DNA from: Lyophyllum atratum
Taxonomy: Eukaryota; Basidiomycota; Agaricomycetes; Agaricales; Lyophyllaceae
Reading direction: 5' to 3'
DNA length: 64,000 nt
Assembly (NCBI GenBank): GCA_014905825.1
Contig: JACGCN010000020.1
Coordinates: 310,001 to 374,000 of the forward strand
Positions 2,976 to 30,937 of the stretch are shown here, piece after piece (the first letter of the stretch is position 1; each line of letters opens with the position of its first letter). The position numbers and the translations under genes are program-made. Under the pieces are notes generated by a model. That model searched no databases. It saw nothing but the letters and a program-made list of their open reading frames with translations, and had not been told where the DNA came from.

Positions 2976-5672
2976 CGCTTGACGCGCTCGAGTCCGAACC
3001 AAATTCTGAAGGAGTGGGTAAGCTTTCGTGGCATGACCGAGTCTCAGGGTAACCATACCTGCTGAACTATCAGAACGGATGGAATTCAATTCAGCATCAG
3101 TCTGAGCATGATCCGCCAAGATATAAGCCGCAAGCATGGGCTTCAGAGAACGTTCGGGGATAAGCCGCTCGCCATAGCCAGATTCCGTAGCCCTCCGACG
3201 TGCGTGAAGTGCCATTCGCATGTACATCTCCGCTTTCTTTCTTGCATACGCAGCGTGACCCGGCCTCTCGGATGACGTCGCAAGTTGATTCCAGACAGAG
3301 CTCATCGTGTCAAACGTTGCTATGGTTCGCTTGAGCTCGGCCTGTTTAATCTCAAGTTGCTCCTGCCAGCGCTCCATTTCAGCTTCTGCACGGAACCACT
3401 GAACCCGATTTCCTTCACCATCGCTCATGTCAGGATCGAGTATGATGACGACGACAATGTATATAGCTCACCTTCTTTCGCCCATTCCTCTATCTCACGA
3501 GACTTCATTCCAGTCATAGACTCGAGCCGCCAAATCCACCCGTCTTCGCGAGGGAGATCTAAGATAAATGTTGAGTAGTACGCGCATTGACAACACTAGT
3601 GGCACTTCACCTTCCGCTTTGTCACTGATGCCGCCTGCCTGGCTCGATTCACCTTCTTGTGTCCCTCTCCCCACCTTCCGTTTGGTGCCTTTCTTGACAG
3701 CGGGGTCCTTCCGATGGGTCACACCTGTGTAGGAAGATGTGGTGAGTCGAAAGGGCTAGGTTGGGGTAGGGTCCACTCACGTCGTTTTTTTGCCTTTGTC
3801 CCCTGAGTGGCAACAATAACCTCATCATGCACAAGGGTTGTATTGTCTACATGTTCATAGAGAGCGCCAGGGGTGTTGTTGAAGCTGCTGACACCAATGC
3901 GATAGGCAAGGCCATCAAACTTCCGAGAGTCGCCGATCTTGCGTTTCTGGTAGGTTGACTTTCGATACGTGTCGTGGACGGTGAGAGGCTTGAAGATGTT
4001 GGCCTTGGATCCAGTGGCATCGAGAGTGAGGTAGGCGTCTCGGGACGCGTTGTAGTGCGAGATCAAAAGGTCGAGCTCAGCCTGAGTTTGGAAGATCTTC
4101 ATGTTTGCACGTGTATTGAGTGCTTGGCCATAGGCCTCTTTGGGTTTCCGACCATAGAGAACACCGAGGGCCTTGACAACACTTTGGATGTCGCGTAGAG
4201 AGTCAAAAATAGTGCCCTCCCGGAGCTGTCGCTCAGTGTCAGCAAGCTCGACAAGTCCAAGACGAAGACGATCCTTGAGGGAGAAATGGGAAGGCAGATA
4301 AAGCTTCTCGAGCTCGGGTGAATCTGGATCGCTTGGGCTTCGACTCGCCCGCTGATGCAGCACATGGTCACCGAGAGCAGGTGTCATTGTCTTCTGCTGA
4401 TTGCGCCATTCATCGATCCGCTTCCGGAGTTTGGGCCTTCGGTCCAATATCTCCTTTTTCAAGCCGCTGTCCGATTGATCTCTGTTCAAAGCAGCAATTC
4501 GAGCAAGTAGTTTCCGCCTATCCATCGTTGATTAGAGGTTCAAAAGTTATGCAGAGTTGTTTGACTTACTGAAGAACCTCAATCTCTATCCCTTCGTTGA
4601 TGAAGAAAGCATGGTCTGATACCGATGCCCCATTGGCACGAGTACTTCTTGGTCGATCATCAGTAAGCGTTTTGAGATATTGGAAAGCCTTCGCCTGCGA
4701 AGGGACTTAGACAACCGCTGTCAATTACGGAAGCAAGTGGAAGATAGTGCAGGGATGCTTACCAGCTTTCACGTTGTGCCTATAAACTGACTGAACATCG
4801 GTTTTTCGTCCTCTAGTGGGCCCTGCAGGTGAAGAGTCTCTTCTGAACTGATCGCGCATTTTCTCCCATTCTGGAATAAAGTTTGCATAGAGGCGGCAGA
4901 GCGACTTGAACTCTTCAAAATGTTGCCTGAAGAGCTCCTGTGCTTCGCTCAGCTCCATAAAGAGTGTGTCCGCTATCAATGGTGTGTGAATTCTATCATC
5001 AGTGCACTCAGAGATCACTCACCCATACTCGCAGTCTTTCTCCAGTTCCAGTCGCTATGATTATCGATGAGAGTATCATGGCGGTGACCATTGTTCATCT
5101 GTCGGACTTGGCCGCCAAGCTGGTTAGACTCTACCCAGTAGACCTCGCAAGTCTCGCCATGCTGGTGACCAGCATGTTTGTTGTAGGAACATGCATATAA
5201 GTAGATACAACCATCCTCGTGGTTCTGTACATGGACGAGTGGAATCAACCACCTCATCCTCGAAATCGCAGGGACCAGATCAGGAAAAGATGTATCGAAG
5301 CGTTGCTCGATATTCGTAGAGTAAGCACATGCAATGTCATATGACGTGAAGTCATTGCACGTAGTAATCCACTCGCCATTTGCTTGACTGTCTGCACCGC
5401 TAGGATACTGTCGGATAGCATGAGCAAGTGCATAATCGGAATTTCCAAATCTGGCAAAATAGATCAGCTCTTTGAGCAACTCTGACAGAACAGAGCCTCA
5501 CCGTTCCCCGAGTTGAAGATCAACCGACGCCTGTATAAAAACATGGGGACATTGTACGTGAATGACGCCAGTAATGTCCATGTTTTTGAATTTCTTGCGA
5601 TCTCCTTTATTGAGTGCCTTGAGATACGTGCGAGTATGGGCCATTGCGAGCATGGCGTGACCGAGATCTAGA
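2904..5672 (-). pseudogene. KDZ transposase, C-terminal (catalytic) half, split from its N-terminal half by a Helitron
   Basis: Minus-strand exons read in order as a KDZ (Kyakuja-Dileera-Zisupton) transposase. From 5,672: 'KKFKNMDITGVIHVQCPH' and 'ASVDLQLGER' (exon 5,502-5,672). Then exon 5,023-5,450 has 'SYDIACAY', 'LVHVQNHEDGC', 'GETCEVYWVES' and 'GHRHDTLIDNHSDWNW', the conserved RNase-H-like catalytic block. After that come a helical region 'LCRLYANFIPEW' (about 4,770-4,980), 'ANGASVSDHAFFINEGIEI' (about 4,580-4,660), a coiled-coil region 'KLYLPSHF...ELADTERQLREG' with 'ALNTRANMKI' (3,780-4,525), and a last exon 2,904-3,428 with 'AAYARKKAEMYMRMALHAR'. Introns are short with standard ends. 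The coding sequence looks undamaged apart from the missing 5' half, which lies at 30,938-32,515. The last 25 codons run into the subterminal repeats. Confidence 0.85.
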
Positions 5673-5717
5673 TCTAGGGCCTTCAAGCTTCAGGGCCAGC
5701 CTTTCAGCGTCCAAGAC

Positions 5718-5743
5718 CTGTACATACAATGGATTACATAATA
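5718..5743. terminator. GTAC...GATTACATAAT palindromic motif, outer copy
   Basis: GTACATACAATGGATTAC followed by ATAAT. One of at least nine copies of a loosely conserved motif, most of them behind the stop codon of a gene in this Helitron. This one, and its partner at 5,797-5,822, lie 3' of the Rep-helicase gene, but in the opposite orientation to the copies behind the other minus-strand genes. A 3'-end or polyadenylation role is inferred. Confidence 0.3.
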
Positions 5744-5796
5744 ATGATTAAGCGCAGGCCTTCAAGCTTCAGAGCCAGGCTTTCAGCGTCCAAGCC

Positions 5797-5822
5797 CTGT
5801 ACGTACTATGGATTACATAACA
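5797..5822. terminator. GTAC...GATTACATAAT palindromic motif, inner copy
   Basis: Second copy within the 79-bp duplication, closest to the Rep-helicase stop codon. Same core with three or four substitutions. Confidence 0.3.
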
Positions 5823-5844
5823 ATGATTAAGCGCAGACCCCAAA

Positions 5845-8800
5845 CTACACAACACCGATTGCGGCAGATTCCTTGACATAAACTGCCAGGCTTGCACCTC
5901 TCGAACCACAGGACGCCAACTCAAGACTGGATGGGTCTGGCTCACGGATCAGGTGTCTCCCTGTGGCAAGGCCGTCATGAAACCACACCGAACCATATTC
6001 ATCCAAATACCTGCACGTGAAGTGATGTTCACTGTAGTATACCACCCCTCTCAATGTATACCGCATACTGGTGCCACCTGGAACTGATACGGTCAGCTTC
6101 CTATCAATGGATATCTGGATATTCGAGACGTCGAAGGCAATCAATGGCGGTGTTTGAACAAAGCGATATGATCTGTCCAGGTGTTCGTTGCAGGTCTGGC
6201 ACCGGGATTCTGTCGGAGTGTGGAAGTTGTCAACGCTGATACAATCAGCTATAGAATCGTGACCACAAGACAATAGCACTATGTGAGCCGAACTCGATTT
6301 TGAAGGTCGTCTGCTGACCCTATGGCCATTCCTGCATCGCTGGTGAGATGAAAGAATTGGAATCCTACATCTCAACAACTCGTCAACAATTGCGTGAACG
6401 CTGGCGTAACCACCTGTTGGAAACATGGTAGAATCCTTCTCATGAAGCTTGGAGCGCAGCCAGTCTCTGACAACTTCTAGGGACTCATGATTGCCAGCAT
6501 CGACGGCCTCAAATTTTTGCGTCAGTGGTCTTGTAAATCTTGCACTCGTATGGCGTAAATTAACCGTCCAAAACTGGCGATTGCCGGACCACAAGTTGAA
6601 TAACAGGACTATGACACTGTCATAAGCACAGCTATTAGAGTCCCACACCGTACCTAGAGGCTCGCCGCACTGCTGCCCATTCATATCGGTAGAACCAACA
6701 TCCATGCGTCTACGTTTCGTTGCAGGTTCATCAGAGTCTGCTTCATCCATTGTCTTTCGCTTCGTAGAAGTGTGGACAAGTACAACTGCGGATTTGGCAC
6801 CTTTTGCTGGTACAAAGGTGTTTTTTGGAGTTTCAACACCGCAGAGCGGGTTAGATCTGCTCACCACTTGCCAAGGTATGTCCGGCAACGAGCACTCCTC
6901 GTATGGATCAGATTTGTTCCAGATAAGGGCGGGATGCAGGTGAGGGGGCAGGTAGTCATGCTTCTGGCATTTTCGAAAGGAGGTCAACAGGTCAGATCTT
7001 CTAGGCGCGTCATAAAAACCAACAGGGAGATTTCCAGAGTATCTCAATTTAGTCACTTCGTCGAGAAGCTCAATATCACGAAATTCCTGCCTCAGGGCAC
7101 CACTCGCCTTTCCAGTGATTCTTGATGCATCATAGCCGCATATTAGAAGTGTTCCAGCTGCAGTGGAGCTCCGCGACAACGCTGTGTAATATGCTTGATG
7201 TGATTGGCACTTCCTCAGATCAACTGGGTTATTGGGGCGGGTCTTTCCTTGGCTGGCATAATCAGTTATCGCATAGTTCACAAGGACCTCAGCCTGAGAA
7301 CGATTTACGTGAACAACATCATCAGTAGGCAGTCGGCAAGTCAAAGAAACGGTAGTGCGAACTATTGGAACGACATTCAGGGGAAGGCCTTCAATCTGAA
7401 CGTCCTGAGGTGGGTGGTTCAGCATAACAAACAAGGTGTCTAGCATAAGTTGACCCGCAGTCCCGACACTGGATTTCCATCCATACACAAAACCCTCCTG
7501 ACCATTAGTCATACACAGTTCAGTAGCGGCGTTGTTTTTTATAATGACAGGCAGACCTATGCACAAAGATAACGTACCCGCTATGTGGTTGGAGGTGGAG
7601 GAAGGAGGTTGGTCCCACAGAATCTCCTGCATCTTACTTGGAAGGGGCCGTCTTTCTCGTGTATGAGGAGCTCTGTCAGCTGCCTTGGGCAGACCATCTT
7701 CATCTTTTTTAGCGGCAAGTGTGTCATCACTATAGAAATTGACCAGATCCTGACCACTCTCGCGAGCAAACCTTGCACACCCGACTATGTTTACCGCGTC
7801 TTTATCTATGTTATGAGCAGTTATAATAGACACATTGCGGAATCGCTGGTCCAATATGCATGGGCTCCTGGGATTGCTACTTGTTGTTCTGCTGTCCAAA
7901 AACTTAAGATCCCGAGGCGTGCATGCACGATAGCGCATATTCATGAGACATGTTCTGAGCGCCTCATCCTCTCGTGACTGGCTACGTTGCCTCATATTCT
8001 GCCGCAGTATCACAACAGTTGTAACCTGATGCCACACAGCCTTACCAATTGCTGCCTCTTGATCCTTCAGGTCCGTAGTCCTTGTACCCACAGTACGACT
8101 ATACAATGCTGCGTGTTCGTGTCCTATTACAGGTGGGAGTTGGGCAAAATCACCTGCAAATACCATATTTATTCCTCCAAACGGTACATGCGTATTTCCA
8201 GTGATGTTACCTAAACGCGCGGAGACCCTGTACATGTCTCGGCAAGAGAGCATCGAGACCTCATCAAAAAAAACGTATTCAACTCCAAGTAGTCGGCTCT
8301 TCACGTTTGCCAACTGGTTCTTAGAAACCGATCCCATGTCATTGATCCCAAACATTGAATGGTACGTGGATCCACCCAATAGAGAAGCAGCAGTGCCGGT
8401 GGGTGCTACAACGACTAGTCTGTGAGACTCATGTCTAGCATCGAAGTACTTCACTAAAGCTTTCAACACCTGTGTTTTTCCTGTGCCCCCCATTCCTCCC
8501 ATATACATTTTAAGCTGCTCAGGTAAGTACGAAGCGGCATGATTAGCAACTATCCTGAAAGCTCTCAACTGCTCTTCATTCAGTCCAAAGTCAAGTGAAA
8601 TGCTCTGTACCACCGGTTCCCATTTTTCGCTCTTAAATTTGGCCTCCAGAAACCGACGGTCGACAACGTCTACCACTCCGGGCTCGTTGGACTGGGGTAT
8701 GGAAAAGGGCTCCAACGATGAAGCAGGTATCTTTCTCTGGCGCTCCTTAATGATAGCATTTTTTTGGTCAGTTATCAAGGTCTTCCAATGGTGCCCAGGA

Positions 8801-11800
8801 AGAGAAGACGTCAAAGGCGAACGACTGGTGTCCACCCCTAGATCCTGGTCCATCAACGGTTGGTCCCAACCCAACCGTGTCAAGTCGGCGGTCATCTTGG
8901 CTAAATCGGCCTGTCGTCTCAGTTCCTTCTTACCAGGAAGGTCCCCGACATCCTGAATGCCAACATCGTCGGCCTCGTCACCCTCTTCACTCTCCAAGAG
9001 ATCCTGCTGCTGCATATCGTCAATGTCCGAGGCTGATATACCGTTGCCGGGAAAAGTGACAGCACCACTCTTCAACTGCGCGTAAAAGTCATCTCGCGCA
9101 TCAAGGCATTCGTAACGTATATTCATATTCTTCATAAGTTCTAGCTGCCGTTTGGAAAAGCAGTGGAGTGAAAAAGCGTTCCCCCAATCCTCGTTGGGTG
9201 ATTTTAGATCTCGACCATTACGCCATGGCTTGAACAGTGTTAGCATAGTCAAGCAATAATACTGACGGTCACCTTGATCAGCCCTAGGCAGTGTTCCGCC
9301 TATGAAGTTGGGCACTCTGTTGCCGTGTGGGGGGTGTATGTGTGTACCGTGAGTGTCAGCAAGAGGATGGTCAGTGAGGAAAGCAACAATCGTCGCTGCC
9401 CCACTCCTCGACGTGGAAAACATGGCAGTGGTGGCTTTCTTCAGCTTCACACGTTGAGACCTTGACACCCACTCGTACAGAGACATGTCGCTCAGTTCCG
9501 GGCCACGATGTATGTAATCAAAGACCTGGCTCAAACCCACTACACGTCCTCGCCTTTTAAGTAGGGTGAGCTTGTCCGATTCCGACTCACCGTCAGCATT
9601 TTCTTCAGGTGTCCAAGCACGCTTGGCTTCTCTAACATAACTAGGCCAATGAACATTTACGAATGTGTGATCAGTATAATGATCAGGGTTTCCCAAGAGA
9701 TACATGCATATCATAGGCGACCCCATTTCAGATTTGGCGCTTAACACATTTGCCATTTTTGTCATCAAGGACCTTGCTTTTTCATTGCGCGGGAGAGGAC
9801 CGTCAATCAGGTCAGAGTTTTTTTGAAAATAGAAGTTACAGCGCTAAACGCAGTGCTGGTTTTCAGCGCAGGTTTGGTGATGTACTTGGTCACATACAGA
9901 AGCACTGCCTTGAAAGAAGTTCCGGAGCGCAAACTCTCTACATCAGTGTTGCAACGGAACAGATACGATACAGCAGATGTAAAGGTATTAATCCAAGGTT
10001 CGGACTTCCGCATATTGAGCGCACCAGTCTCAGGATCTACCTCAGTTTGATTATATAGGGGTCTAGGAAATCTTGCGCGACATCTCTTCCAAGGATTATC
10101 CAAGCACCCCTTATTCTCCTTGTTCAATTTTTTGGTCCCGTCCTCTTTATACACGGAATAGCATGTATGTATGTTCGAGCGAAATATAATGTCATCTACT
10201 GTGAACTTGAACCTGGACCACCAACCTGCCTGATCATAACACCGATCACACGCAGAGCAGCTAGTCGCGCAAGGAGGAGGTGGGGGATCAGGAAGGGTTC
10301 TAGTTGGGTCTACATACTCAGGCGTGTTCTCCATATTGGCAACTTGCGCCCTTACCACGTCAATCGTGCCTGTGAGAAAATCACCGGTGAACGCGGCTTC
10401 CAAATACTGAACCAGAGCCTTTTGGAAGTCGGATTCTGGGTCCATGATTTTAGACCTGGCATCCTCAAACGTAAGGGCCCTTATCAACCAGATAAGAACA
10501 TGTAAATGAAGCGTCAGTCGTCCTTGTTGCTCGACTGTCCCATAATAAGCAGAAGTGTCCCCGTATAGTCCAGGCGTGTCAGAGCCTACGCCTAGAACAT
10601 GCTTGATGAACGCAGAAATCATGAAATGAAAAAAACCGTGCCCCAGCAACTGGATTACTTGCGATAAGCCTATATGCCTTATCTGATCCGACACGAAGAT
10701 CAGGCTTGAACACCGTATCAGTGTCTGCAAAATAAAGGCATATTGGGTGCTTAATGTCAACAGGTGATAAAGTTATATACCAAGATGGGGCACCTTTACT
10801 GACGACAAGAGACCATATCTCATTTCTCATGTGCTTTCTGGAAACCGTTGAACCTTCAATACGACCAGAAACGACGTCTAAGTCTTCAATTACTTTGAAG
10901 CATGCTTTTTCCTCCTCGGTATTAGGACGCAGGATTTCTCCATTGGCCATACGCGATGCTAGATCGTTGAAAACAGATTGATTTACAGAGAGAAGACGAT
11001 CAGCTATGTCTGAGAAGTGTTTTCGCTCAACGGCAAGAAACCCACCACTGGTAGCAGCTTTAACCTGCTCGTGACTGAAAGCTGCAAAAGGATATCCAGT
11101 ATCCAACTGGAAGCGCTTGTCATGATAGAGCAGGAGGTTTCCCTTGTGTTTGCGTATTGACATACGACCGTTGGATGCACCTAGGCCGCCTAGACCGTAT
11201 GGAAACAGCCAAGGGAACATCTGAGGATATAAGGATGGATCATTTTTGAACCAGTTTTTAGGGAGAGTGGAATGACCCACACGCAGCACAGCTCCGTTAG
11301 AGCGCCAGTGCTGCAATGCCAAACCCTTCAGCTCGTCTTTAGTTTTTGCTCCTAAACTTTCACCAGTCAGTCCGTGTACAACAAACGGGCAGCTTCCATC
11401 GATGACCCCATTATCGCCTTCTACATCATGAACAGCAGGATCAACAGTTCTTGCCTCCTTAACACTCGGGTGGTAAATGACAGAAACAGGGGGTTCATGT
11501 TCAGGATATTCGGATAGGTTCTTGTGGGATATCTCAACATCCTTATAATCTTTGTGGTTGAGCAGCAACCATTCCAGAGACTTTTGAACAGCGGATCGGC
11601 GTACCAACAAAGGAGTCCGCTTGAAATCGTCTTCGGTAGGCCGGCAAGGACCTGTAAACAATATGGCCAAAACTTCGTCCATTTCTGAGAGAGGTGGAGG
11701 GAGCATCTCATAAACCTTGGTCACAGGTGACTCAAAAGCGATCAGATGAGCATTCATTTTATTTAACCCTGAACTGGATACATGCGCATAACAAAGAGAT

Positions 11801-13542
11801 GTCCGTACTTTAGCTACAAGAAGCTTCTCAATCCATGTCAGTCCTTTCAGGACCTCAGGCACGTCGCCCAGCCAAAAACCGTTTGCCAGAGAGTTAGACG
11901 GAACGACACCTTTGACAAGTGCTATATGACAACTGGAGCAGACGTGTGTGCAAGATAAGTCAAGCACAGGACCTGGCAGGTCCTTGATAGGGTCAGAGGA
12001 CTTAAGTCTTTCTGTACGTGTCATGTCAGGAACGGTGAGAATGCCTGTGAGTTTTTGAAGATCTTTGAGTGGCTTCATGGTCGACAGTGGATGGAGAAGA
12101 CCGCACACCGCACATCCAGCTTCACTGATTGCGTCAGAGCTGCTAGCACTGCAAAAATCGGCAACTACATCTCGTGCGACCTCAGGACTAAGTGGTTTGG
12201 GAGGGAAGACACACTCATCGTACGGGTCAGGCAAATCATCCTCCAATACCACTTTAGCGCTTTCAGCGGATGAACGCAATACGGGACCAGGTGCAGCACC
12301 CCTAGAACGACCTGATGTGTCGAGCTTATCGGGTGTAGAGTTACGTTTGGTACGCGATCCTGAATGGCGCTTCAAATTGTCGGCAGGGGTGTCAGAATGC
12401 AGTTTTGCAAGCTTTGAACGGGCGGCTGATCTACGAACAGCCTTTCTGGCATTTACATCGGGCTCAGCAAGGAACACTGAAGAGAGAAAAGTGCACTGTC
12501 GGCAACTGTGACCTTGGAAGGGATCAAGCGAGCTTGAAGCATTAAACTTGGAATGCAGTATAATTCCGTGACTACGAGCGATTTTACGCACATTTGTTAC
12601 AGATATATGTTTAGCGAGTATATCAAGAGGGACTCTCGCGTGTATGAAGCCGCTGCTCGTTGGGAATGATAAAAGTCCTGTATCAGCCGTATGAGCGATG
12701 AATTTGAGAACAGTATTGGGAGGATAGCTGTCAGTACCTGCATCAATGAAAGGCAGAATGTCATGGGGAAGAAACGAAAAGGTTTTACCCCCTCCCATCT
12801 GGGTGTGGGGGGCGGAGACCGCTTGCACCGCTACAGCACGAAGTATGGGACTACGGTATCGGTAACGTGAGGGAGTATAAGCCAAAGTATATTGTGGAAA
12901 AGAGGCAAGTGTGAAAATAGTGATGCGTACGCAACGTGCCGTTGCAAGGTCTGGCCAATATGCAGGGAGGAGGTAACCCATATCGTGTACATGTAAAGCG
13001 AGGTCAACACCACAATACATACGTTGAATAACGCATATGGGGATAGTGACAGGCGGACGACACATAGCCATATTAAAATCATGGCTCAACATGAAGGGCC
13101 TCAACAATTGGATCGAGAGGCGCCTAACACGAATGACAGGTTGACGAATCGACGTGAAACGAAATAGGCGTGTCCAGCAGCCGGGAAGATTGTAACGACA
13201 ACGAGGAAGAGGGGCAGACAAGGGATCTGGTATTACATCTGACAATGCATTGATGGTATTCATCAAGAGTGTGAGTAAGCGGTGAATAAGGGGGACAAAT
13301 TGGGAATAGAGAGTTTTGACGTGCGGGGGTATGCACAAACGAACGACGAAAGTATGGACATGAAGAGACCAAGAAGGTGTGCAAGATACAGACGATCTAC
13401 CATGTGAACAGTGTGCGGCATGCGCCAAGTTGGGACGGAGGACGGTACCCCAAGAGCAATGCTCTAAGTCATAAGTAGAGCGTTGCTCCAAGTGAAACTG
13501 AGAGCTTGGCTCCATGGGGGAGAGGGAGCCAGTGCACTGCAC
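5845..13542 (-). CDS. Helitron Rep-helicase with C-terminal ubiquitin-protease-like domain (two frameshifts)
   Basis: Three minus-strand reading frames (13,542-10,579, 10,760-9,807 and 9,768-5,845) make one rolling-circle transposase. The first has a Cys-rich N-terminal region ('FQGHSCRQC'), a DUF6570-like domain ('CAVCGLLHP', 'VCSSCHIAL') and the start of the Helitron-like Rep domain ('MFPWLFPYGLGG'). The second has the HUH motif 'LHLHVLIW' and the catalytic-tyrosine motif 'YVTKYITK'. The third (1,307 residues) is a PIF1-type helicase: Walker A GGMGGTGKT (424-432), Walker B FDEVS (501-505), GDFAQLPP (539-546), RQN (589-591), and C-terminal 'YASQGKT' and 'YTALSRS'. Residues about 1,035-1,290 resemble a ubiquitin-specific protease: Cys1047 in 'NSCAYDS', a His box 'HHFTCRYLD' near 1,248 and 'WFHDG', with several Cys/His (1,145-1,193) between that could bind zinc. 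The frames join at a 7-A run (10,629-10,635) needing one base fewer and a 7-T run (9,818-9,824) needing one more. The true start may lie well inside the first frame. Confidence 0.88.
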
Positions 13543-18630: not shown

Positions 18631-18680
18631 GAGTGTACGATCCAGTACGTGGAATGACCGCGACAGGTTACAAACAGAGG

Positions 18681-18718: not shown

Positions 18719-18732
18719 ACGGCTGAAGGCAC

Positions 18733-21036: not shown

Positions 21037-21074
21037 AGTCACGAGACTGATTATGTAAATTATAGTACAGACAT
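21037..21074 (-). terminator. Palindromic 3'-end-like motif before the TET-like gene
   Basis: Near-identical partner of 18,681-18,718. It sits about 220 bp behind the proposed stop of the unknown gene at 21,292 and about 140 bp before the possible first TET exon. Confidence 0.35.
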
Positions 21075-21291
21075 GCGAGAGAGGGCTCAAAAGTTGGACA
21101 ACAAACTTAACTCACCACCTTGCTATATGCCTGGAGGGGGTACTGATTCGAGTCGTAAGGTCACTGATTTATTTTTCATTCGCCAATAGAGGGGTACGAC
21201 GATAAACGGACGGGCAAAAGATACAAGCTGCGAGCACAGATATTGACTAAGGAAACGGCCAACCCAGCGCGAATGATAGCATACTACGCGT

Positions 21292-23140
21292 TCAGGCTCT
21301 GGCCTTGCCCTTTCCAGAGACCCCCTCACCAGCACTGGCGCTGCCGCCTCCACCAGTAATAAGAGAGGAAGGAGTGTTGAGTACAACCACAAACAAGACA
21401 TTTGTGGATAGGTACCTGAAAAGATGGGGTCAGGCATAGAAGACAATTCGGGATAGGAAGCTGACTTCTGCGCGCTGGGATTTGTGCGGTCCAGAGTGAA
21501 CCAGTTGGCTGAATAGCCGACTGTTACAACTGAAAGAGGAGGCAAGTCCGATCGGTCATTCATGTAAGCTCTCCAGGTTGGGAGGTCTTTAAAATCCTGG
21601 GGGTCGAACCGGAAAGGCCGGCCGGTCTCTGAACGACCGTCGTATATAGGGACTGCAAAGCACATAATATAATAATGGGATAGCAACGGATAGTAAATGG
21701 ACCTACTGATGTCATCGTACTCCAATACGGTCTTCGTAGCGTTGCTACCAGCAAAACTAGTCGCAGTGGGCACTGCGTCGACGGCAAATAGGTCGCTATG
21801 GGCTGAAAGGTCCGGGCGCGGTTTCTCCTTCGGGACAGCGTACCCTCCTGCTAGATTGAGGCTTTTAATAGGGAAGAGGTAAGAAGGAGTAAGTTAACAA
21901 CTGACCATAGGACTGCGCAGCACGTTTACCCTCGCCACGTGTGACGAAGGCAAAGCCCCCTTTTGAGTAAGTGCCTTTGACCCCCGTTGCGGGCAGTTGC
22001 AGAATCTGGAAGATGGCCCCTATGTCACGAACTATTTCTTGCTGGAAAGGGAAGATGCTGATGCGATGCTGCCTGTACTTCTCGGAATCCAAATTACCCG
22101 ATCCAGCAAGGACACCAGGCCCGGCAAGGTCGCATGTGGAGACAACCCCATTCATCAAGCAAGTGGCGTATGCGCCGCCGTTCTTCAAAGTTATCCGACG
22201 GTAGGATGACGCGAGGACGGATGGATCAGCGCGGGCCAAGTTGACATAAAAGGCGTGTTTATCAAAAAGGAGGGCGCGAAAGAGAGACCTGAAGTGATCA
22301 AATTAAGGCGTAAGTAAGCTAGATCAAAAGCAGAGTGGAGGTAGTGATAGGAGACGTACTCGAGATTTTCCGTCGACATGTACTTACGGAGGACGGAAAT
22401 ACGGATTGTGGGTCGGGGTTCAGAACCAAGATTTTTGTCGTATCCATAAGGCTCAATGAATGCTCGTTTTCTGAAAGGGACCAATCAGAAAGAGTTTAAA
22501 AAACATAATTTAAAAGGGACAAAGAGGACAAAACAGTGTCGAGGTTTGTAACGCACTTTATTAAAGGTAGGTGAGCATAAGCGCCTTCCATGAGGGGGTC
22601 CTGCAGCTCAACGTCCATAACTGGCAGGGCAACGACATCCACCTCTATGCCATAGTCGCTGAGTAAAGGGAGTAAGTCAGCAGAAGTATTTAATGCTAGC
22701 AAAGAAAGATAGGTAAACAGAATAAAAGGCTTACTTTTCGTCTGCTGGTACACGGGAGGAGTCGTTGGCAGGATTGATGCTGGCAAGCTTATGAGAAATC
22801 AGAGTCTGCTCCTTTTCGTCCACGGGGTCATCGGGGAGCACCATTTTTTTGGCCCGCCGGGAAGGGGTGACGGGTGGGGAGGGCGTATAGGGAAGGCGGG
22901 GACGTCTACCTCCCAGGGAAGCGTTCTTGCGAGCAGCGTTGGACGCATCAGAGTGCGCTTCTTCATCAACGTCAGTGTCAGCAGTGTCAGGAACAACAAA
23001 GCCATCGACGAGGTAGCCGGAAGAATAAGTGCCCTCATAAGGGGGTGATACAGATATTTTGTCGACATCCACATCATCGATAGCCTCTTTGTCGACAAAC
23101 AGAGAACGAGACAGCCTGAGGACAGAAGGAAGTAAGTGAG

Positions 23141-23180
<40 letters not shown>

Positions 23181-24082
23181 ATAAGGGCAAGGGGAAGGAG
23201 GGGTGACGGCACAAACTTTGCAACGCTGGGTAGATCATCTTCGTCGTCCGACGACAAAGAGATGGGCGAAGATGCTAGAGCCCTACCCTTAGCCTGAGTC
23301 TTGATTTTTAGACGACTGGCATCCGCGTTGAAGGGCTCCTGCTTTATGTTCACTCTGGTCAGCGACGAAGCCTTAGGTCCCAAGGCTACAATGGATTGCT
23401 CAGCCAAGGCAGCCGCAGCCTTTGCAGTCGGAACGCGTGCACGGCTGAACAAGTGTACAAAGCGTTTGAGTGAAGCACTTGCCGACATAGCAAAGGCAAG
23501 AATAACTTACGTTGAGCGTCCAAGAGGAGTAGGCAGATCCTCCGCTGTAAGACTGGCCATGGCCCGACTGTGTGACGACAAAGGCGCAGAATTATTAGAT
23601 AAATAAGTTAAACACACAAAGCACGTACATAACGGCGGACCCAGGAGTCGCTGATATGACCTGTTTCTTTTTGGGAGATGGCGTAGATGGAGCAGAGCTG
23701 AAGATAATATTAAATGATTAAAAGGACCAAGACGGCTACAAACACGTACCTCTCGTCCATTGGGGACATTTTGCGCTTGCTAGGGCTTGCGGGTTGGCTG
23801 ACGGGTGCTACACGCCCGGAAGACGAGGCCGCAAGAGCAGACTTGAAAATCCTGTTGGAGAATAGCGTGCCGGGAACAAGGTCAGGATGGAGGAATTTCA
23901 GCGAAGACCGGCAATACGAACGCGCTGAACTTGACGTCGGATCTGCAAAGATAAAAACAGGAAATGTCAGAGGTATTAAAAAGTAACGGACAGGGCGATA
24001 TAAGCACTAACAATCCGTCGAGCTGTGCATCCAAGGGACGCGGGGCGGAGGTGGACGATTTAGAGGGCTTTCGGGGAGGCAT
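21292..24082 (-). CDS. Unknown multi-exon protein of an agaricomycete family ('VPxxDGR' type), Helitron cargo
   Basis: A minus-strand gene with many short exons. It begins near 24,082 ('MPPRKPSKSSTSAPRPLDAQ') and continues through 'KRKMSPMDE' (about 23,760), 'SAPSTPSPKKKQV' (about 23,680), 'MASLTAEDLPTPLGRST' (about 23,540), 'RVNIKQEPFNADASRLKIK' (23,220-23,490), 'EGTYSSGYLVDGFVVPDTAD' (22,735-23,110), 'ALPVMDVELQDPLMEGAY' (about 22,600), 'SVLRKYMSTENLE' (about 22,400), 'ATCLMNGVVSTCDLAGPG' (21,900-22,290) and 'VPIYDGRSETGRPFRFD' with 'LSVVTVGYSANWF' (21,430-21,660). It likely ends in a small basic tail at 21,292. I recall this arrangement from many hypothetical agaricomycete proteins, but no function is known to me. 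The N-terminus is Ser/Pro/Lys-rich and may bind nucleic acid. The first splice does not keep frame as I read it, so it may be partly damaged. Confidence 0.6.
23141..23178. repeat. 38-nt poly(A)/poly(T) run in an intron
   Basis: An uninterrupted run of 38 A on the plus strand lies in an intron of the unknown gene. On the coding strand it is a T run placed before the 3' splice site. Its length makes it prone to slippage and to sequencing error. Confidence 0.95.
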
Positions 24083-24803
24083 TGGGGAGGCAGTTCACGA
24101 TAGGGATAGTGAGTAAACGAGCATTATAAAAGCGAATGAATCGGGAGAGCCCAAAGGGGTAATTGGAGGACCAATGGTTAAACTCCGTGGTGCATAGCAA
24201 ATGCGAATCAACTATGGAATGCACATATTTTGGAGGACGATGAAGTCAGGTCAGCCAATGGGACAATAGATACCATGAGGGAGAAAACTCTGGAGTAGAA
24301 ACACCATTACCAACGGGTGACAGATAGATAGGTATGCAGCTAATAAAGAAGCTGGAACATACCAAACAGAAGAGAAGTAAGAAGAAGCTAAGATAAGCAA
24401 CTGTACATGCGGATGAACTCGAGTCGGTACGGGGTGGGCGGCTCCGCGGAGGTCAGACGATCTTTCCAGAGAGGAAAGGAGGGAAGCAAAAGTGGAGCAG
24501 GAACAAGCCACGCCCCGAAGTAAAAATTGACGAGGAGCGCAGATCTGGGGAAGCACAGAGGGAAAAGAGCGGGGAAGAAGAGCATGTGTCTGTACGCATG
24601 GCCACTGAAAAGACACCCAGTTTTCGACCACCATACGCACACAAAGTCTGCACCGGCACCATTGTGAATATGGAATCCGCCTACAACAAAGATTCAGCGA
24701 GTGAGTGAGAATAATGCAACTTGGAAAATTATGACGAACTAAAATGATGCACAGAACAGAGTATTGATCGTCTGGCGGACGAGGGTCAGAAGGAAGACGA
24801 AAC
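24083..24803. other. Divergent intergenic region between two cargo genes, possible extra plus-strand exon
   Basis: This separates the minus-strand unknown gene from the plus-strand FRIGDIV gene, so both promoters should be here. On the plus strand about 24,415-24,690 has an open, charged frame ('RKGGKQKWSRNKPRPEVKID', 'HVSVRMATEKTPSF') ending in a GTGAGT donor-like site. It could be a 5' exon or remnant, but nothing identifies it. Confidence 0.35.
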
Positions 24804-25876
24804 ATGCCTCCATGGTCTGCTAAAGGTAAACGCCGTGTATTCGAGAAAATGCAAACAACTTAACTAAAGATACAAGGACCCCGAATGGTTCGAGGGCGTC
24901 AGAATCAAAGAAGTCGTCAAAGACAAAGTGTTTGCGCTAGTCATCGCGGATGATAACGGCAATCCAACGGAAGACGAATGCATCTTTACGGTGTACGGGG
25001 CCATATCCAAGAAGGACCTCCCACCGTTGAAAGCAGGCGTAAAACAAATGTAAGTCTGGGCAACGTAAACTGAGCGAAGGTACTGACGCCGGGGACACCA
25101 TCACAGAGACCAGGGAAGAATTAAATTCCTGAAGCAAGCAATTCGCCTTGATGGCCTGGGTTCAGAACGGTTTAAGGATGCTGTGGTTGCTGCGGGCGCG
25201 GTGTGGAACCTTTTCGATAGGGTATTCGAAGAAGGCGTTCTAGAGAGCTGGAAAGACGGCCTGGCGGGCGAGGATAACAACCTCATGGATATGTCGAACC
25301 TGCTTGTCACTAGCGTCAAAGCCGGTACCGGACAGCAGCACATACCTTTCGATGCAGGCAGTGACCCTCATGCGGTGATGGACAGCCTCATTCAAAAAGG
25401 TTACATGCGCACGGAAGATAACATAGTGCAGTACTCAGAAAGTAAAGTCGGCCTGGGTGGAAAGCGAAGGTAAATTATTCATATTTAATTTATTTTTGTT
25501 TTATTGACCAGTACCATCAGGTATGAGAAGATCGGGCCCCAAGCGTTCAGGATAGGAGACATAGTAGCGGCGCAGTTGTCGTTCAAGGCTATAGCGCTGA
25601 AGGAAGGCAGAACAAGCAAGAGCCGGATGATAGTGGTTTTACGGTCATTGACTCTGCTGGCCAAGAGCTCGAACTTCAGGAAGGTGAGGGCTAGCGTTAT
25701 CAGCGCAACACTCAAAAGCATATGATAGCGCGTGTTAGGAACCCGAAGCCCAAAGTGCGAAAGTAACAGTTACCCTGAAGAGGAAGCTCAGGCCGCTGGA
25801 GGATGCAGAGGTATATGACGTAAGGAAACGCATAAACGACATGTCAGTGGACGACGAACAAGTAAACAAAATGTAG
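24804..25876 (+). CDS. FRIGDIV-family hypothetical protein, Helitron cargo
   Basis: Plus-strand exons: a short start near 24,804 ('MPPWSAK', first donor unresolved), then 'DPEWFEGVRIKEVVKDKVFA' with 'IADDNGNPTEDECIFTVYG' (about 24,870-25,050), 'QGRIKFLKQAIRLDGLGSE' through 'MRTEDNIVQYSESKVGLGG' (25,106-25,470), 'YEKIGPQAFRIGDIVAAQL' and 'MIVVLRSLTLL' (25,515-25,682), and a last exon 'AKVTVTLKRKLRPLEDAEVY' ending in a TAG at 25,874-25,876. The joins after the first exon keep frame with standard GT..AG ends. The 'FRIGDIV...VLRS' core belongs to a family present in very many copies in agaricomycete genomes. I know of no assigned function. Its presence in a Helitron suggests that at least some copies spread as transposon cargo, which is inference. 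Confidence 0.7.
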
Positions 25877-26079
25877 TACACACAATTTATACATGCATGC
25901 ATTCCAATGACAGAAACTTGCCAGCAACGCATTCTCATGGCAAGGCACAGTACCATTATGTGTGATATGCGCAAAGAGGCATAGTTTGATCAAGCAATAA
26001 TTGAACACGCAATAACTAATACTTTACTTCAGGGCATATGAACATGGACAAAAATGAGACCTTAACTATTGCTACATCC

Positions 26080-26445
26080 TTAGTAGCACCGGGTGGTGCA
26101 GTGCTCATCGTAGTGCCGTATCCGTCCGTCCTCATCATAGCCGAATTCGGAATCGCAATTACACTGGACGTTTTCGTCTTTATCCTGCTGCCAGCGAATG
26201 AACGCAGCTGTGGCTGATATAAGGGGTCGGGTCAGAAACAGACGGCAAGGATACAGATGAAACAAGTCAAAATGATAAAACTCACCAGGATCGTAGTGCT
26301 GTACCTCTCTGTCCTCATCATAGCCGAATTCGGAATCGCTATTACACTCGGACGCACAACAATAAAAAATAAACTGTTGAGCAATATATGTGAAGGGAAA
26401 CAAGTGGCGAGTTTGGGAGGGACGTAGGCAGACATCGAAGTGCAA
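26080..26445 (-). CDS. Small Cys-rich protein with duplicated C...SEFGYDEDG...HYD motif
   Basis: Two minus-strand exons of a short protein. Exon 1 carries 'ECNSDSEFGYDEDREVQHYD'. A standard intron (about 26,285 to 26,220) follows, and exon 2 carries 'CNCDSEFGYDEDGRIRHYD' with a tail 'EHCTTRCY'. The two motif copies are nearly identical over about 35 bases at the DNA level (about 26,120-26,155 and 26,312-26,347), so an exon was duplicated. A second gene with the same motif lies at 28,574-29,230. The motif is C-x-C, acidic, FG-x-DEDG-x3-HY. I recognise no known domain. The start codon is uncertain because the N-terminal part has no recognisable sequence. Confidence 0.45.
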   Translation of the reverse strand: MHFDVCLRPSQTRHLFPFTYIAQQFIFYCCASECNSDSEFGYDEDREVQHYDPGEFYHFDLFHLYPCRLFLTRPLISATAAFIRWQQDKDENVQCNCDSEFGYDEDGRIRHYDEHCTTRCY

Positions 26446-26464
26446 CGAGGCTGGAAAATGAGAG

Positions 26465-26490
26465 AATTACATAATCAATGGTACAGACAT
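26465..26490 (-). terminator. Palindromic 3'-end-like motif before the small Cys-rich gene
   Basis: The minus strand reads TGTCTGTACCATTGATTATG then TAATT. It lies about 460 bp behind the CxxC gene (stop at 26,954) and 20 bp before the start of the small Cys-rich gene. Confidence 0.3.
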
Positions 26491-26953
26491 TGTATGTACA
26501 ACTTCAAGAACGTCTAATGCATTAACGTGACCATAAGAATTGTAAAAGGCATATAACAACGTGCGAGCAAGATGTATGAAATATGGGCCTTGTAGCCGAT
26601 GGGTGCACCCGTAATCGAGGAGGAAGGCCAACGATGAGTTTGCAGGTCAAATTCCTGGAAACAGTAATGCACATCATTCACCACCAATTAATTCAGCACC
26701 TGGGTACATTTTCAAGTTTTGTTTCGACGTAGCAAAATATATCATACTGGGTTACATACATAGGAGGGAAAATCTCATGTAATTATGGGGGAGAGGTGGG
26801 GGCATACACGAGCGATAGAACCTTGGTCGACCATATAAATTTCTAGGTGATGGCAAGTAATGTAAAAAGGAAAACTAGTCAATATTGAGTGCCAGTAAAC
26901 GGTAAGATTTAACGCACCTCATATAGAAATTCGGAGGGACGGCGCCTAATTGA

Positions 26954-27724
26954 TCAGAGGCCATCATACGCCAGGCTATTGTCCATTACCGCATCGGCCA
27001 TGCCGTCTTCATCCTCCCACTCCTTAAGCAACTCCTTCAAACGTTCACCCCGCCGAAAGACATTCTCTCGAGAATGGAAGCTGAGATGCGGTTTGAAGGG
27101 GAACAGAGTGAGTGTTGCGAGAGAGTCGGAGGGAAGACGGCAGTCATGGTTCATATCATGATCGAGGACTCGAATAACCTCGGCACAGAGAGCTTCGTCG
27201 GAAGCACGTGCTATGAAAAGTTCGGTCATGGCGAGAGCTGCAGCATAACCATGGGTCGCGACCCGGACTTCAGCAGCCGCGCGATCTCGACCAACCCTAG
27301 TAAAGGCGTCAATCAAAGCCTTCACACCTTAAGCCAAGTGTATCAGTTTATAAAAGAACAAGAATCAGGACAGCGACATACTTGATGGTAGGTCAGGGAC
27401 ATCCCGCAGCCTCTCAGCAAGCGCGTTGCGCGCGGACACCGGAACACGGTAGCTACATATATCTGCCTGTCCAAGAGTGATGCAGCATCTGCACGCAACA
27501 CCCCAACCTTCAAGCTTGCAAGGACTCTTCAACGGGTCACCGGCACACGATCTGCAAGAATCGGGGACCTATGCAGGTCGTAAATAAGCAAAGAAAATAG
27601 AGTACATGTAAAAGCATAAGCAATTGCGACTAACCGCGGCGTGTGGTAGCTGCACGTTCTTGAGTATGGATGTACCCTCAACGGTCAGGGGGGACACACT
27701 GCGAGGAGGTAATAGGTAAGCCAT
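26954..27724 (-). CDS. CxxC zinc-cluster-like hypothetical protein, Helitron cargo
   Basis: Three minus-strand exons. Exon 1 starts with ATG at 27,724 ('MAYLLPPRSVSPLTVEG') and ends at 27,635. Exon 2 starts at 27,568 and holds 'CRSCAGDPLKSPCKLEG' and 'ACRCCITLGQADICSYR'. Exon 3 (27,325 down to 26,954) holds a helical C-terminal part ('DAFTRVGRDRAAAEVRVATH', 'RGERLKELLKEWEDEDGMA'). The spacing of six or more Cys resembles the short Cys clusters common in agaricomycete hypothetical proteins; zinc and DNA binding are inferred, not shown. It lies on the same strand as the other cargo genes. Confidence 0.6.
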
Positions 27725-27810
27725 GTTACGAGAGCGTTATCGTTGTGCTCAAGACAGAGAATAAAAACGAGCCCTTAAATGAAAAATGAAACGCAGGAAG
27801 CGGAAGCATC

Positions 27811-28268
27811 TCAGAAGTTCGCGAATCCTACAACAAGGAATGCTGCTTACTAGTTTGGTCTTTGAAATTCCTGAGGTGGACAGCGGCCTCTCACGACAGA
27901 TCGCCTCTGAATCTGGTGATCAGAGCGGCTTCAAGAACACCAAGTGGCTCAGACGCCTTTTACATTTGATTCAAGAGTTTGCGAATCCTACGACAAGGAA
28001 TGCTGCTTACTAGTGTTGGTCTTTGAAATTCCTGAGGTGGACAGCGGCCTCTCACGACAGAGCGCCCCTGAATCTGGTGATCAGAGCGGTTCCAAGAACA
28101 CCAAGTGGCTCAGACGCCTTTTACATTTGATTCAGAAGTTTGCGAATCTCACGACAAGGAATGCTGCTTACCAGTTTGGGTCTTTGAAATTCCTGAGGCG
28201 GACAGCGGCCTCTCACGACACATCGCCTCTGAATCTGGTGATCAGAGCGGATTCAAGAACACCAAGTG
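27811..28268. repeat. Tandem array of three 160-bp repeats
   Basis: Three consecutive copies with periods of 160 and 161 bp (starting near 27,811, 27,971 and 28,131). Each includes 'GACAAGGAATGCTGCTTAC', 'GACAGCGGCCTCTCACGAC' and 'GAATCTGGTGATCAGAGCGG'. Copies agree at about nine of ten positions. A separate 24-bp fragment of the unit (CTCAGACGCC...) recurs at 29,643-29,666. Both strands contain open stretches, but no coding motif is recognisable. Confidence 0.9.
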
Positions 28269-28330
28269 ACACCAGGGATACAGGACGGATGTGACGAGAA
28301 GTCAGAGACGCATGTTCAAGGGGGACATAT

Positions 28331-28356
28331 TATTACATAAACAACGGTACAGACAC
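28331..28356 (-). terminator. Palindromic 3'-end-like motif behind the second Cys-rich gene
   Basis: The minus strand reads GTGTCTGTACCGTTGTTTATG then TAATA, about 220 bp behind the stop codon at 28,574. This fits a 3'-end role. Confidence 0.35.
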
Positions 28357-28573
28357 TCGACAAAAAAGTCACATGCATTCACACGATTGTAAGTGTCTGA
28401 AAAGGCATACAATACTGCGCCACTCAGTGTAACTTAAAACACACTAGACTGTACATTATCTAAGAGATTTTTCAAAAGTGAAAGATTTACAATAATTCAA
28501 GGCGAAGATTTATTTGTCAAAAAGAAACAGTGTAGTTGCCAAGTGTTACGAAAACAACCACGAGCCTGCATCC

Positions 28574-29230
28574 TCAGAACTGGCAGCCCTCTCCGTAGTG
28601 GCGAACTTCACCGTCCTCATCCCGCCCAAAGGTGGACTCGCAACCGCACTCGTCGTCATCATCCTTCTCCAAATGCCGTCTCCAAAGAGCAAGGGAGACT
28701 GACGGAAGCACTTTCAGCATTGGACGACAAGGCTCCGTCTAAAAACTCACGGCGGTCATAGGGCACTATCGAGTCCAACGTGGTGCTGGGTGCAACGCGT
28801 GGGACAGGCTTATTGATGTCCGGGCTGCAAATGTTACTGTTTGCGGCACCTGCGGCACCTGCGGTCTCAGCCAGGCCACTGCTGCCAGGAGTAGAGAGGC
28901 TGCTGTTGGCGGCGGTGGTTAGGTTGGACGGAGAATCGTGACTGCTGCAGAGAATAGTCAGGTGTCTCGTTACACGGTGAGTACGGACATGTGCTCACGG
29001 ATTCGACTCAGGGGCCGATGCAGCCACATTTTTCGGTTTGTCCTGTACCACAGGGAGGGAGGGAGCACCAACGTCACCTGTGTCTACTGTACCGGATTCT
29101 ATGTTATAGCAACACAATTAGCAAGGGCTTGCGCTCGTAGCCAGCAACTAACTTACGTTGATTGGACTGCATTTGTTTCGACGTATGCGAGAGGTGGCTG
29201 GGGAGCAGAAGCGCTTAGGGGATCTGGGGA
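28574..29230 (-). CDS. Second small protein with C-x-C...FGRDEDG...HY tail
   Basis: Minus-strand exons end with 'CGCESTFGRDEDGEVRHYGE' then 'GCQF' and a stop at 28,574-28,576. That is the same C-x-C, acidic, FG-x-DEDG-x3-HY signature as the gene at 26,080-26,445. Upstream exons are Ser/Thr/Ala-rich: 'PSNLTTAANSSLSTPGSSG' and 'INKPVPRVAPSTTLDSIVPY' (28,755-28,945), 'SGTVDTGDVGAPSLPPVVQD' (about 29,000-29,090), and perhaps 'SASAPQPPLAYVETNAVQS' (about 29,155-29,215). The start codon is not resolved. The low-complexity body with a conserved Cys-rich tail suggests an intrinsically disordered protein; no function is known. Confidence 0.45.
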
Positions 29231-29394
29231 AGAGGAGGAAGAGCAGGCTGCAAGTTAAGGGAAAGTAAAAAGGGGGTTTACCATGCAGGACTAACGTTAC
29301 TTACGAAACAGTACATGCGTAGGAGGGAATGGATCCGCAGAACTTCACATGCACGAGGCTGAATTCAATGGTCAGGGCCAACTGTCGATGTCCA

Positions 29395-29501
29395 GAGTCT
29401 GATTAGAGTGCCATGTGTCGACGGTGAACCCTAGCGTGCCTTACACGGAGTCTGATTAGAGAGCCGTGCGTCGGCGATGAAGCCCTAGTGTGCCTTACAC
29501 T
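29395..29501. repeat. 53-bp tandem duplication
   Basis: Two adjacent copies, each starting TCTGATTAGAG and ending in GTGCCTTACAC, with about eight differences. They lie in a stretch without recognisable genes (about 29,240-30,000). Confidence 0.8.
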
Positions 29502-29862
29502 GGTCCAGAAGGAATTTTCCGGGATTCTTGGACTCTATAAACGGCAACATTGGAGAAGAGGACGGAAATGAAGCAGCACACGAGGCAGATTGATATTACC
29601 AAAAAGGACACAGTACAGACAAGACAAGCAGGAATAGGCACCTCAGACGCCTTTTACATTTGATTTGGAGGTCCAGTTATCAGAGGCAAAGACAATATTG
29701 ATGACCGGGGCACAGTAAGTACGCAACACTAGAAGCACAAAGGCGGACGACAGATCCAATAAGCACGATCATTGGAACATCGACATATATGCAGATAATA
29801 TGGAGTATAATCATCGACACGTACAGGCAACAATTGATGTCCGAGGAGGCTCGGAAAAGTAA

Positions 29863-29886
29863 AATTACATAATTCACGGTACAGAC
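29863..29886 (-). terminator. Palindromic 3'-end-like motif
   Basis: The minus strand reads CGTCTGTACCGTGAATTATG then TAATTTT. No minus-strand gene ending nearby was recognised, so either one was missed or the motif is a general repeat of this element. Confidence 0.25.
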
Positions 29887-30000
29887 GAGGAAGACACATG
29901 CATCTATATGACCCAACAACCCAGCCCACTACCAAACCCCAGAGCGTCGCTTCAAAAAAGCTACAGCGCCGAACATCCACGATATTGAGCGCGATGTCTG

Positions 30001-30600
30001 ATGCAATTGATTTATCCATTGATAACACTCCTTCCAACGGTGGTGAGTTTCATCGCGGTGTTACTCAGAGGCAATACCAATAATAACGGGACAAATATCA
30101 CAGAGAACCGCTATCAAGATATAACCTTTGCGGAACTGACTATTTTATCAGTATTACGTCTCATTCAGACAGTGGAAGGAGTAGGTGGCAGGGCAAACAT
30201 CCACATTACAGACGGAGGGAATGGATGGGACGACGACATACGATGCAAGAGATTGCAATTAAATATCCACGACATTCATTTGCCGACCGTTCTAGTAACG
30301 CTGCTCCGGATGGACAATTGGATGAGTGTAGATATCCATACCGACTTTGCCTGGACCACGATATTGGCGCAGATAGTTGTAGATGGCGGTGGTCAAGAAG
30401 TCGAAGAGGCAACGATAGGGCCAGAGGGAGAAATTACTGGCTATGTCCCAAGAGACCGGAGGAAGCTCAGGTTCTGCATAGGCAATGTGAGCGTGCGGTT
30501 TTACATTCCACCTCCAGGCCGAGCCCGACCCCGAAGTAATGTAGACATACTCTTGGAAACTGAGGGTGATACGGACGACCGTTATTTCGCAGAAACTTAG
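30001..30600 (+). CDS. Unknown 199-residue protein near the Helitron 5' end
   Basis: One open plus-strand frame of 199 codons. The first 23 or so residues are hydrophobic ('LIYPLITLLPTVVSFIAVLL'), which could be a signal anchor. They could equally be intron read-through, because a GTGAGT...CAG pair lies at about 30,042-30,070 and another frame upstream ('MSDAIDLSIDNTPSNG') runs up to it, though that splice does not keep frame as read. The rest is acidic and strand-rich ('IQTVEGVGGRANIHITDGG', 'NWMSVDIHTDFAWTTILAQI', 'FCIGNVSVRFYIPPPGRA'). I recognise no family. Confidence 0.4.
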   Translation: MQLIYPLITLLPTVVSFIAVLLRGNTNNNGTNITENRYQDITFAELTILSVLRLIQTVEGVGGRANIHITDGGNGWDDDIRCKRLQLNIHDIHLPTVLVTLLRMDNWMSVDIHTDFAWTTILAQIVVDGGGQEVEEATIGPEGEITGYVPRDRRKLRFCIGNVSVRFYIPPPGRARPRSNVDILLETEGDTDDRYFAET

Positions 30601-30862
30601 CTATCACCGAAAATCAGGACAGTAGCGCAGCACCAGCATCATCATGATAGACGACATGTTAGATACAAGGGCTGATTATTTATCCAACGTGCCTTGAGAA
30701 TAATATACAAACACAGGTACAGATAAAAAGGTTACAGGAAGACGGAGTTATTGTAGCACGCAATGCACGATAACAGGGCAGGGAAAAGATAGCGTTACAT
30801 AAGACGTGGTACATGCAAAAGAGTCACGTGAGGTCACGCGTTTTCTTCATTTTTTGGGTACC
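30601..30862. other. Helitron 5' subterminal region without recognised genes
   Basis: AT-rich, with a weak TTACATAAGACGTGGTAC motif copy near 30,794-30,813. No coding sequence is supported. Confidence 0.4.
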
Positions 30863-30937
30863 TCTATAAATAGATTTCAAAAATTCCCAAAACTTTTCCA
30901 CCCAAATGACTTTGTATAACCTCAATCTATAAATAGA
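30863..30937 (-). repeat. Helitron 5' end with paired TCTATTTATAGA palindromes
   Basis: The near-palindromic 12-mer TCTATAAATAGA occurs at 30,863-30,874 and at 30,926-30,937, 63 bp apart. The outer copy forms the first bases of the element on the minus strand (5'-TCTATTTATAGA). A duplicated short palindrome at the start is not required of Helitrons but could be a recognition site for the Rep protein. Confidence 0.7.

Follow-up and report, generated by a model that had tools for sequence, protein, structure and literature searches.

The 64,000-nucleotide stretch of DNA from the Agaricales mushroom Lyophyllum atratum analysed here (the window; contig C65:310001-374000) contains a 25-kb transposon in which genes for a Rep-helicase, a JmjC-like protein and a TET-like dioxygenase lie on the minus strand and, as the original prediction had proposed, between one pair of ends. 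Its ends and protein domains class it as a Helitron2-type element. Comparison with its relatives in the genome (64.8 Mb in 151 contigs) suggests a family whose autonomous form consists of Rep-helicase and JmjC, to which one lineage later added TET, and in which the two oxygenases would counter silencing at two marks; we give this reading a probability of about 0.6. The element and its three genes are as follows:

5627..30944, minus strand: whole Helitron2-type element, from copy comparison, with a T conserved on each border
5848..13662, minus strand: Rep-PIF1 helicase (DUF6570, Helitron_like_N and PIF1 by Pfam), in three pieces through two frame changes
14050..18630, minus strand: JmjC-domain gene, open over nine exons (1362 aa), with HYD and PH motifs supplying the iron ligands
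19157..20572, minus strand: TET/JBP-like dioxygenase gene, three exons, 435 aa, open, HxD...H

Ends, type and insertion site

Aligned copies place the 5' end at a T followed by TCCGAGATCTATTTATAGATTGAGG, starting at window position 30944, and the 3' end at CTCGGTCACGCCATGCTCGCAATGGCCCATACTCGCACG followed by a T, reaching down to 5627. The copies share TTCCGAGATCTATT at the start and, at the finish, CTCGG, a hairpin and CCCATACTCGCACGT (CATGT in one copy). Beyond these sequences the flanks are all different (21 of 21 read on the 5' side, 22 of 22 on the 3' side); in 15 of 21 copies a G precedes the 5' TT. Since conserved ends give way to differing flanks in every copy read, the element spans 5627-30944, with the assignment of the border T ambiguous by one base. 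Both ends thus shift from the positions first given, 5667 and 30937, and the CTAG hairpin formerly taken as a terminus is internal to the element according to junctions aligned between copies. Genome-wide, the 5' motif occurs at 34 places exactly, at 36 with up to one mismatch and at 64 with up to two. Its reverse, used as a control for chance, occurs at one place with up to two mismatches.

The following structures were found at the ends:

30934..30943, minus strand: 5' asymmetric terminal inverted repeat CCGAGATCTA, 10 bp, at the 5' end
30926..30937, minus strand: hairpin-forming palindrome TCTATTTATAGA at the 5' terminus, which overlaps the inverted repeat there
5661..5670, minus strand: 3' copy of the asymmetric terminal inverted repeat, TAGATCTCGG, set 34 nt in from the 3' end
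5640..5656, minus strand: 3' hairpin GCCAT-GCTCGCA-ATGGC, downstream of the 3' inverted repeat

This arrangement is that of Helitron2. The asymmetric repeats are 10 bp long and the 3' one is subterminal and upstream of a hairpin; for its distance from the end, 34 nt here, the available text of Bao and Jurka (PMC3627910) gives about 20-30 bp. The palindrome TCTATTTATAGA overlaps the 5' repeat, a T stands at both borders in all copies read without a long target duplication, and a Rep domain (HUH, two Tyr) is fused to a PIF1 helicase. The fusion is seen in the Pfam matches and in the copy on contig C62, where a single 2605-aa frame holds LTLHLHVLIW, YVTKYITK, GGTGKT and DEVSM. The CTRR 3' end and A/T insertion of Helitron1 are absent, the 3' end being CACG(T). 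On the evidence of this end, the border bases and the asymmetric repeats, we replace the canonical CTRR-type end of the original prediction with a Helitron2-type one. The 3' hairpin does not exceed shuffled sequences in stability (z 0.48); candidate 3' ends of a sister family, introduced below, also bear a stem, of other bases, as judged by eye.

The insertion in the window splits a KDZ transposase gene:

5018..5626, minus strand: 3' part of the target KDZ transposase gene, by profile match
30945..32587, minus strand: 5' part of the same gene, with a CxC2 domain in 31266-32195

Joined with one T and freed of two introns, the parts give an open frame that matches the KDZ profile at 150.9 bits over positions 19-217; the 3' side alone scores 137.1 bits over positions 58-217 and the 5' side alone has no match. 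A DNA-level search of the genome for the empty KDZ site returned just the two flanks. For the C62 copy, four paralogous places match both flanks as one piece, and an alignment of three of them shows sequence that continues across the insertion point with no element there. These empty sites are one base shorter than the closed C62 join, one of them showing a plain T. Two other accounts were considered and ruled out: that the conserved 3' tail is KDZ coding sequence, with all copies targeting KDZ genes, by the unrelated flanks; and that the window and C62 copies belong to one segmental duplication, by flanks that differ.

Gene content of the related elements

Thirty-four exact 5' ends and a variant 5' end on C119 were paired with 35 3' ends. 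This yielded at least 34 complete elements of 2.7-54 kb; a 5' end on C86 and a 3' end on C73 found no partner. Among the 5' places, those with one or two mismatches did not enter the pairing, and the search counts behind it are lower bounds. JmjC is present in eight of the 34, Rep-helicase in seven and TET in two, the window copy and that on C62. All seven Rep-helicase elements carry JmjC, and checking all 50 helicase matches led to the same seven. The element on C60 has JmjC and lacks the helicase sequence; in that at C130:311-365k the JmjC gene is split by about 22 kb and the helicase match is broken as well. The pairing of JmjC with TET, which had been proposed as a test of the element, recurs in the near-identical C62 copy at an unrelated site and nowhere beyond these two.

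The remaining 26 elements share the ends and hold neither gene, one of two observations that together would have told against the original prediction; the other, a fixed host locus for the genes, was not found. Nine of the 26 were inspected. They share with full elements about 170 bases at the 5' end, a few dozen to about 200 bases at the 3' end and some short pieces, and their interiors are otherwise unrelated. By eye, long frames in gene-poor elements on C46, C62:203-215k and C35 resemble a Copia gag-pol, a pogo-like transposase and a tyrosine recombinase; the ends therefore also frame nested elements.

The slot that TET occupies in the window lies between two copies of a sequence box:

18671..18721, minus strand: box TGTCTGTACTATAGATTACATAATC, upstream of JmjC
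21027..21077, minus strand: second box copy (86%), upstream of TET, found by BLAST

The element on C60 has both boxes (like TGTCTGTACTATxGATTACATAAT) close together, and in C104 and C130:311-365k the slot is the same 42-base gap as in C60. Two boxes were also read by eye in C130:1521-1550k, where the pattern scan reported none; that scan also missed the copy beside TET. In C119:1543-1559k and C130:114-130k (about 15.7 kb each) the 5' end is followed by JmjC and, downstream, Rep-helicase, with no TET match between; C130:1521-1550k and C60 additionally hold an unidentified region. Because the slot is empty in C60, C130:1521-1550k, C104 and C130:311-365k, the simplest history would be a single gain of TET between two pre-existing boxes, in the lineage of the window and C62 copies. 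The same empty slots would be expected had TET arrived as part of another transposon nested in the Helitron. We consider this very improbable: neither inverted nor direct 9-mer repeats occur within 140 nt of the insert ends, the insert travelled with the Helitron to C62, and the listed frames of the 2.3-kb insert are TET and short ones, in a list that involved no search aimed at transposases.

Boxes like GGTCTGTAC and GATTAYGTAAT occur upstream of JmjC and TET and also in the last 160 nt of 11 of the 22 copies read; they could be a shared regulatory or binding site. Three further observations concern single stretches. Window 28269-29641 is 97.5% identical to the C60 copy, while other long blocks are at 73-82%, and either a recent exchange or a shared younger insert may account for this. 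The C62 copy has an insert of about 737 bp upstream of JmjC that the window copy lacks, apparently flanked by TATGTCTGTA repeats. At the C-terminus of the helicase (5848-6660), NSCAYDS and HHFTCRYLDEYGSVWFHDG resemble motifs of ubiquitin-specific proteases; this region has no Pfam match. Elsewhere in the window we noted:

21126..25000, minus strand: one or more unidentified genes, conserved in part among related copies
38500-61000: long diverged direct repeats, spaced about 10 kb and 12-13 kb

The JmjC and TET genes

The JmjC gene expected at 14.05-18.63 kb was recovered as an open nine-exon model (18630-14050); for this gene and for TET, splice sites were picked by consensus and frame. Its iron ligands are conserved, the HxD in 11 of 11 sequences and the distal His in all nine that cover that site. 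The best profile match is ceKDM7, a histone demethylase (E 5.8e-6). Pfam JmjC is matched by three of the 11 (best 0.0019) and not by the window's own protein. The best Foldseek hit of a structure model with a predicted local distance difference test score (pLDDT) of 46 is ceKDM7A (E 0.013), and VIA-align on this model ranks several unrelated chains above PHF2. A protein search with the domain only returned solely the host's own protein. Five further JmjC matches in the genome, at up to 37% identity, lie outside the 34 elements.

JmjC is under constraint within the Helitron family. The ratio of nonsynonymous to synonymous substitution rates (dN/dS) of the catalytic core is 0.117 against C60, 0.099 against C130:1521k and 0.118 against C130:114k, over 469 codons each, at dS of 0.72, 1.21 and 1.68, the last two near saturation. 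For the whole gene the ratios are 0.297, 0.211 and 0.220, and for its proline-rich middle 0.65, 0.39 and 0.38, in the same order. Projection of the gene onto these three copies met 0, 1 and 3 stop codons, which were omitted from the calculation. For comparison, the Rep domain gives 0.187 against C60 and the N-terminal part of the Rep frame 0.558.

All iron ligands of the TET protein are present, as originally noted, and the HxD...H pattern is kept in 38 of 39 aligned relatives. Across 66% of the TET protein, a Lyophyllum atratum protein matches it with 100% identity. A fold search gave TET enzymes as the nearest solved structures, with 5-methylcytosine (5mC) oxidases as the best matches; sequence and profile searches against PDB sequences returned no TET. 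With E values up to 1 accepted, Pfam Tet_JBP matches 15 of the 39 relatives (best 1.4e-5), and it does not match the window protein. The PE-type hallmark HxE is missing, HxD standing in its place, and the AG-type Asp nine residues past the HxD aspartate is Cys in 38 of the 39 relatives, a position counted along the sequence without structural alignment.

The TET family of the window comprises 59 loci genome-wide (63 matches less four secondary pieces), some of them likely alleles. Twenty-five of these lie within 10 kb of a KDZ match (73 KDZ positions kept of 109 listed), a zone that makes up at most 2.3% of the genome, and mostly at 2-3.5 kb. A Helitron helicase match within 20 kb exists only for the TET genes of the window and C62 copies, and a DNA search found the TET stretch in these two alone. 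The closest relative (63%) sits 2.75 kb from a KDZ match. The KDZ-near loci are likely KDZ-borne genes that fit neither the AG nor the PE hallmark, and the window's TET was likely, though not provably, transferred from a KDZ transposon.

Five further Rep-helicases, 66-71% identical to that of the window, define a sister family:

C64:179-202k, C64:3096-3120k, C13:616-622k, C119:617-629k and C86:552-561k: TET/JBP gene plus Rep-helicase

In all five, the TET/JBP gene shares the strand of the helicase match and lies upstream of it by 6-11 kb. The one protein tested matches Pfam Tet_JBP above the curated cut-off (E 1.2e-17) and CcTet (E 7.2e-11), and it retains the AG-type Asp as read from an alignment; the other four share 67-95% identity with it. 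JmjC gave no match at the sister loci in the genome search, and reading 9.9 kb of one copy revealed none either. Related 5' ends were seen in the two copies read; the 3' ends are provisional, as candidates were located by inverted repeat and one copy has two. The copies on C13 and C119 score equally and may be alleles, in which case the five would represent four insertions. Such equal-scoring pairs on separate contigs recur, for example in the TET-family search, and part of the assembly may for this reason contain two haplotypes.

These comparisons bear on whether the oxygenase genes are passive cargo, that is, hitch-hiking host or transposon genes, such as Helitrons frequently bear, of no benefit to the element. 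TET is limited to one recent lineage and has relatives elsewhere, near KDZ matches in the proportion given above, and 26 of 34 elements hold neither gene. Nevertheless, JmjC accompanies Rep-helicase in seven of seven copies and keeps a core dN/dS near 0.1 at dS of 0.72-1.68, and a TET/JBP gene stands upstream of five of five sister Rep-helicases. We regard passive capture of both genes as unlikely; for the window's TET alone it is plausible.

A possible anti-silencing role and known systems

Given the class of the enzymes, the retention of JmjC under constraint and the parallel acquisition, we favour the anti-silencing reading. The host, whose genome holds C5-methyltransferase genes, would mark the element with 5mC and repressive histone methylation. 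JmjC, whose nearest solved relative is KDM7, would remove or block the histone mark, and the TET protein would oxidise 5mC. Rep-helicase would thereby remain expressed, and full and gene-poor copies with common ends could move. This role, which we infer from sequence, is strengthened by the JmjC constraint and by the sister-family TET.

Alternatively, the enzymes could be active without erasing silencing marks. TET might make a protective or signalling base (a product of N6-methyladenine (6mA), 5-hydroxymethylcytosine or another), or JmjC might hydroxylate a host protein or act non-enzymatically, possibly in replication through a single-stranded intermediate. The TET protein lacks the AG-type residue set, with its Cys nine residues past the HxD aspartate; the available text of PMC12730594 describes CcTet as active on 6mA too, and that of PMC7192584 describes Epe1 as a non-enzymatic JmjC protein. 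We nonetheless think this quite unlikely, as the best fold matches of TET are 5mC oxidases and the best profile match of JmjC is a histone demethylase.

The DNA itself bears no clear footprint of methylation, in its CpG content or in the substitutions between the window and C62 copies. CpG content is 0.87 in the element and 0.88-0.99 in gene-poor copies including flanks; of the substitutions, 7 of 26 transitions fall at CpG, beside 12 transversions. This fits escape from methylation and also no methylation at all.

More tentatively, and at somewhat less than even odds, a Helitron2 clade may include chromatin-erasing Fe(II)/2-oxoglutarate oxygenases in its autonomous gene set; the histone-type JmjC of one family and the DNA-type TET of the sister family would be interchangeable means against silencing. 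The window lineage would then stack both as a two-layer kit that also frees gene-poor partners.

That transposons carry TET genes is known, but the use of these genes against silencing is unproven. One genome here offers a natural comparison of elements with JmjC only, JmjC and TET, TET only, or neither, so that maps of methylation and histone marks in one fungus could show whether carriers escape silencing through these genes and whether the effect is in cis or in trans.

KDZ (Kyakuja) transposons reportedly carry TET genes, an observation said to be that of Iyer et al. in 2014. The 25 of 59 window TET-family members near KDZ matches recall that arrangement; the window's TET, however, lies between Helitron ends, and the KDZ gene here was merely the interrupted target. 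The available text of Kojima 2025 (PMC12730594) reports TET genes for both Helitron1 and Helitron2, among them a Helitron2 of Agaricus bisporus, and proposes escape from silencing. The likeness extends to a TET/JBP gene inside a Helitron2-type element and to the proposal itself. In that account, however, the A. bisporus transposon TET is PE-type (HxE), whereas the window's has HxD and neither hallmark, and the AG type is stated only for Kyakuja and Zisupton, whereas our sister family has an AG-like TET beside a Helitron helicase. The main text of Kojima 2025 does not mention JmjC, and the accessible portion of Castanera 2014 (PMC4289320) mentions neither JmjC nor jumonji. Among the titles and abstracts listed on JmjC or jumonji with Helitrons and on transposon-borne histone demethylases or anti-silencing, with little of the subscription literature covered, none describes a JmjC gene in a Helitron.

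Incorporation of a chromatin enzyme in a transposon has a parallel in the SET methyltransferase genes of HarbingerS and MuDR in Phytophthora (PMC12730594, as available). SET adds a histone methyl group, whereas JmjC is expected to remove one, and those transposons are not Helitrons. With Helitron2 and FoHeli elements, as described in the available parts of PMC3627910 and PMC5148889, the L. atratum element shares asymmetric inverted repeats, hairpins at both ends, Rep-helicase and insertion at T; FoHeli1 is about 6 kb and FoHeli2 about 5 kb, whereas the L. atratum element reaches 25 kb with its chromatin- and DNA-oxygenase genes. Finally, the VANC proteins of Arabidopsis VANDAL transposons (PMC5735166, PMC10398659, in the text available) are likewise transposon-encoded and said to counter silencing of their own family. 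They are described as sequence-specific anti-silencing proteins, whereas the L. atratum candidates are Fe(II)/2-oxoglutarate oxygenases.

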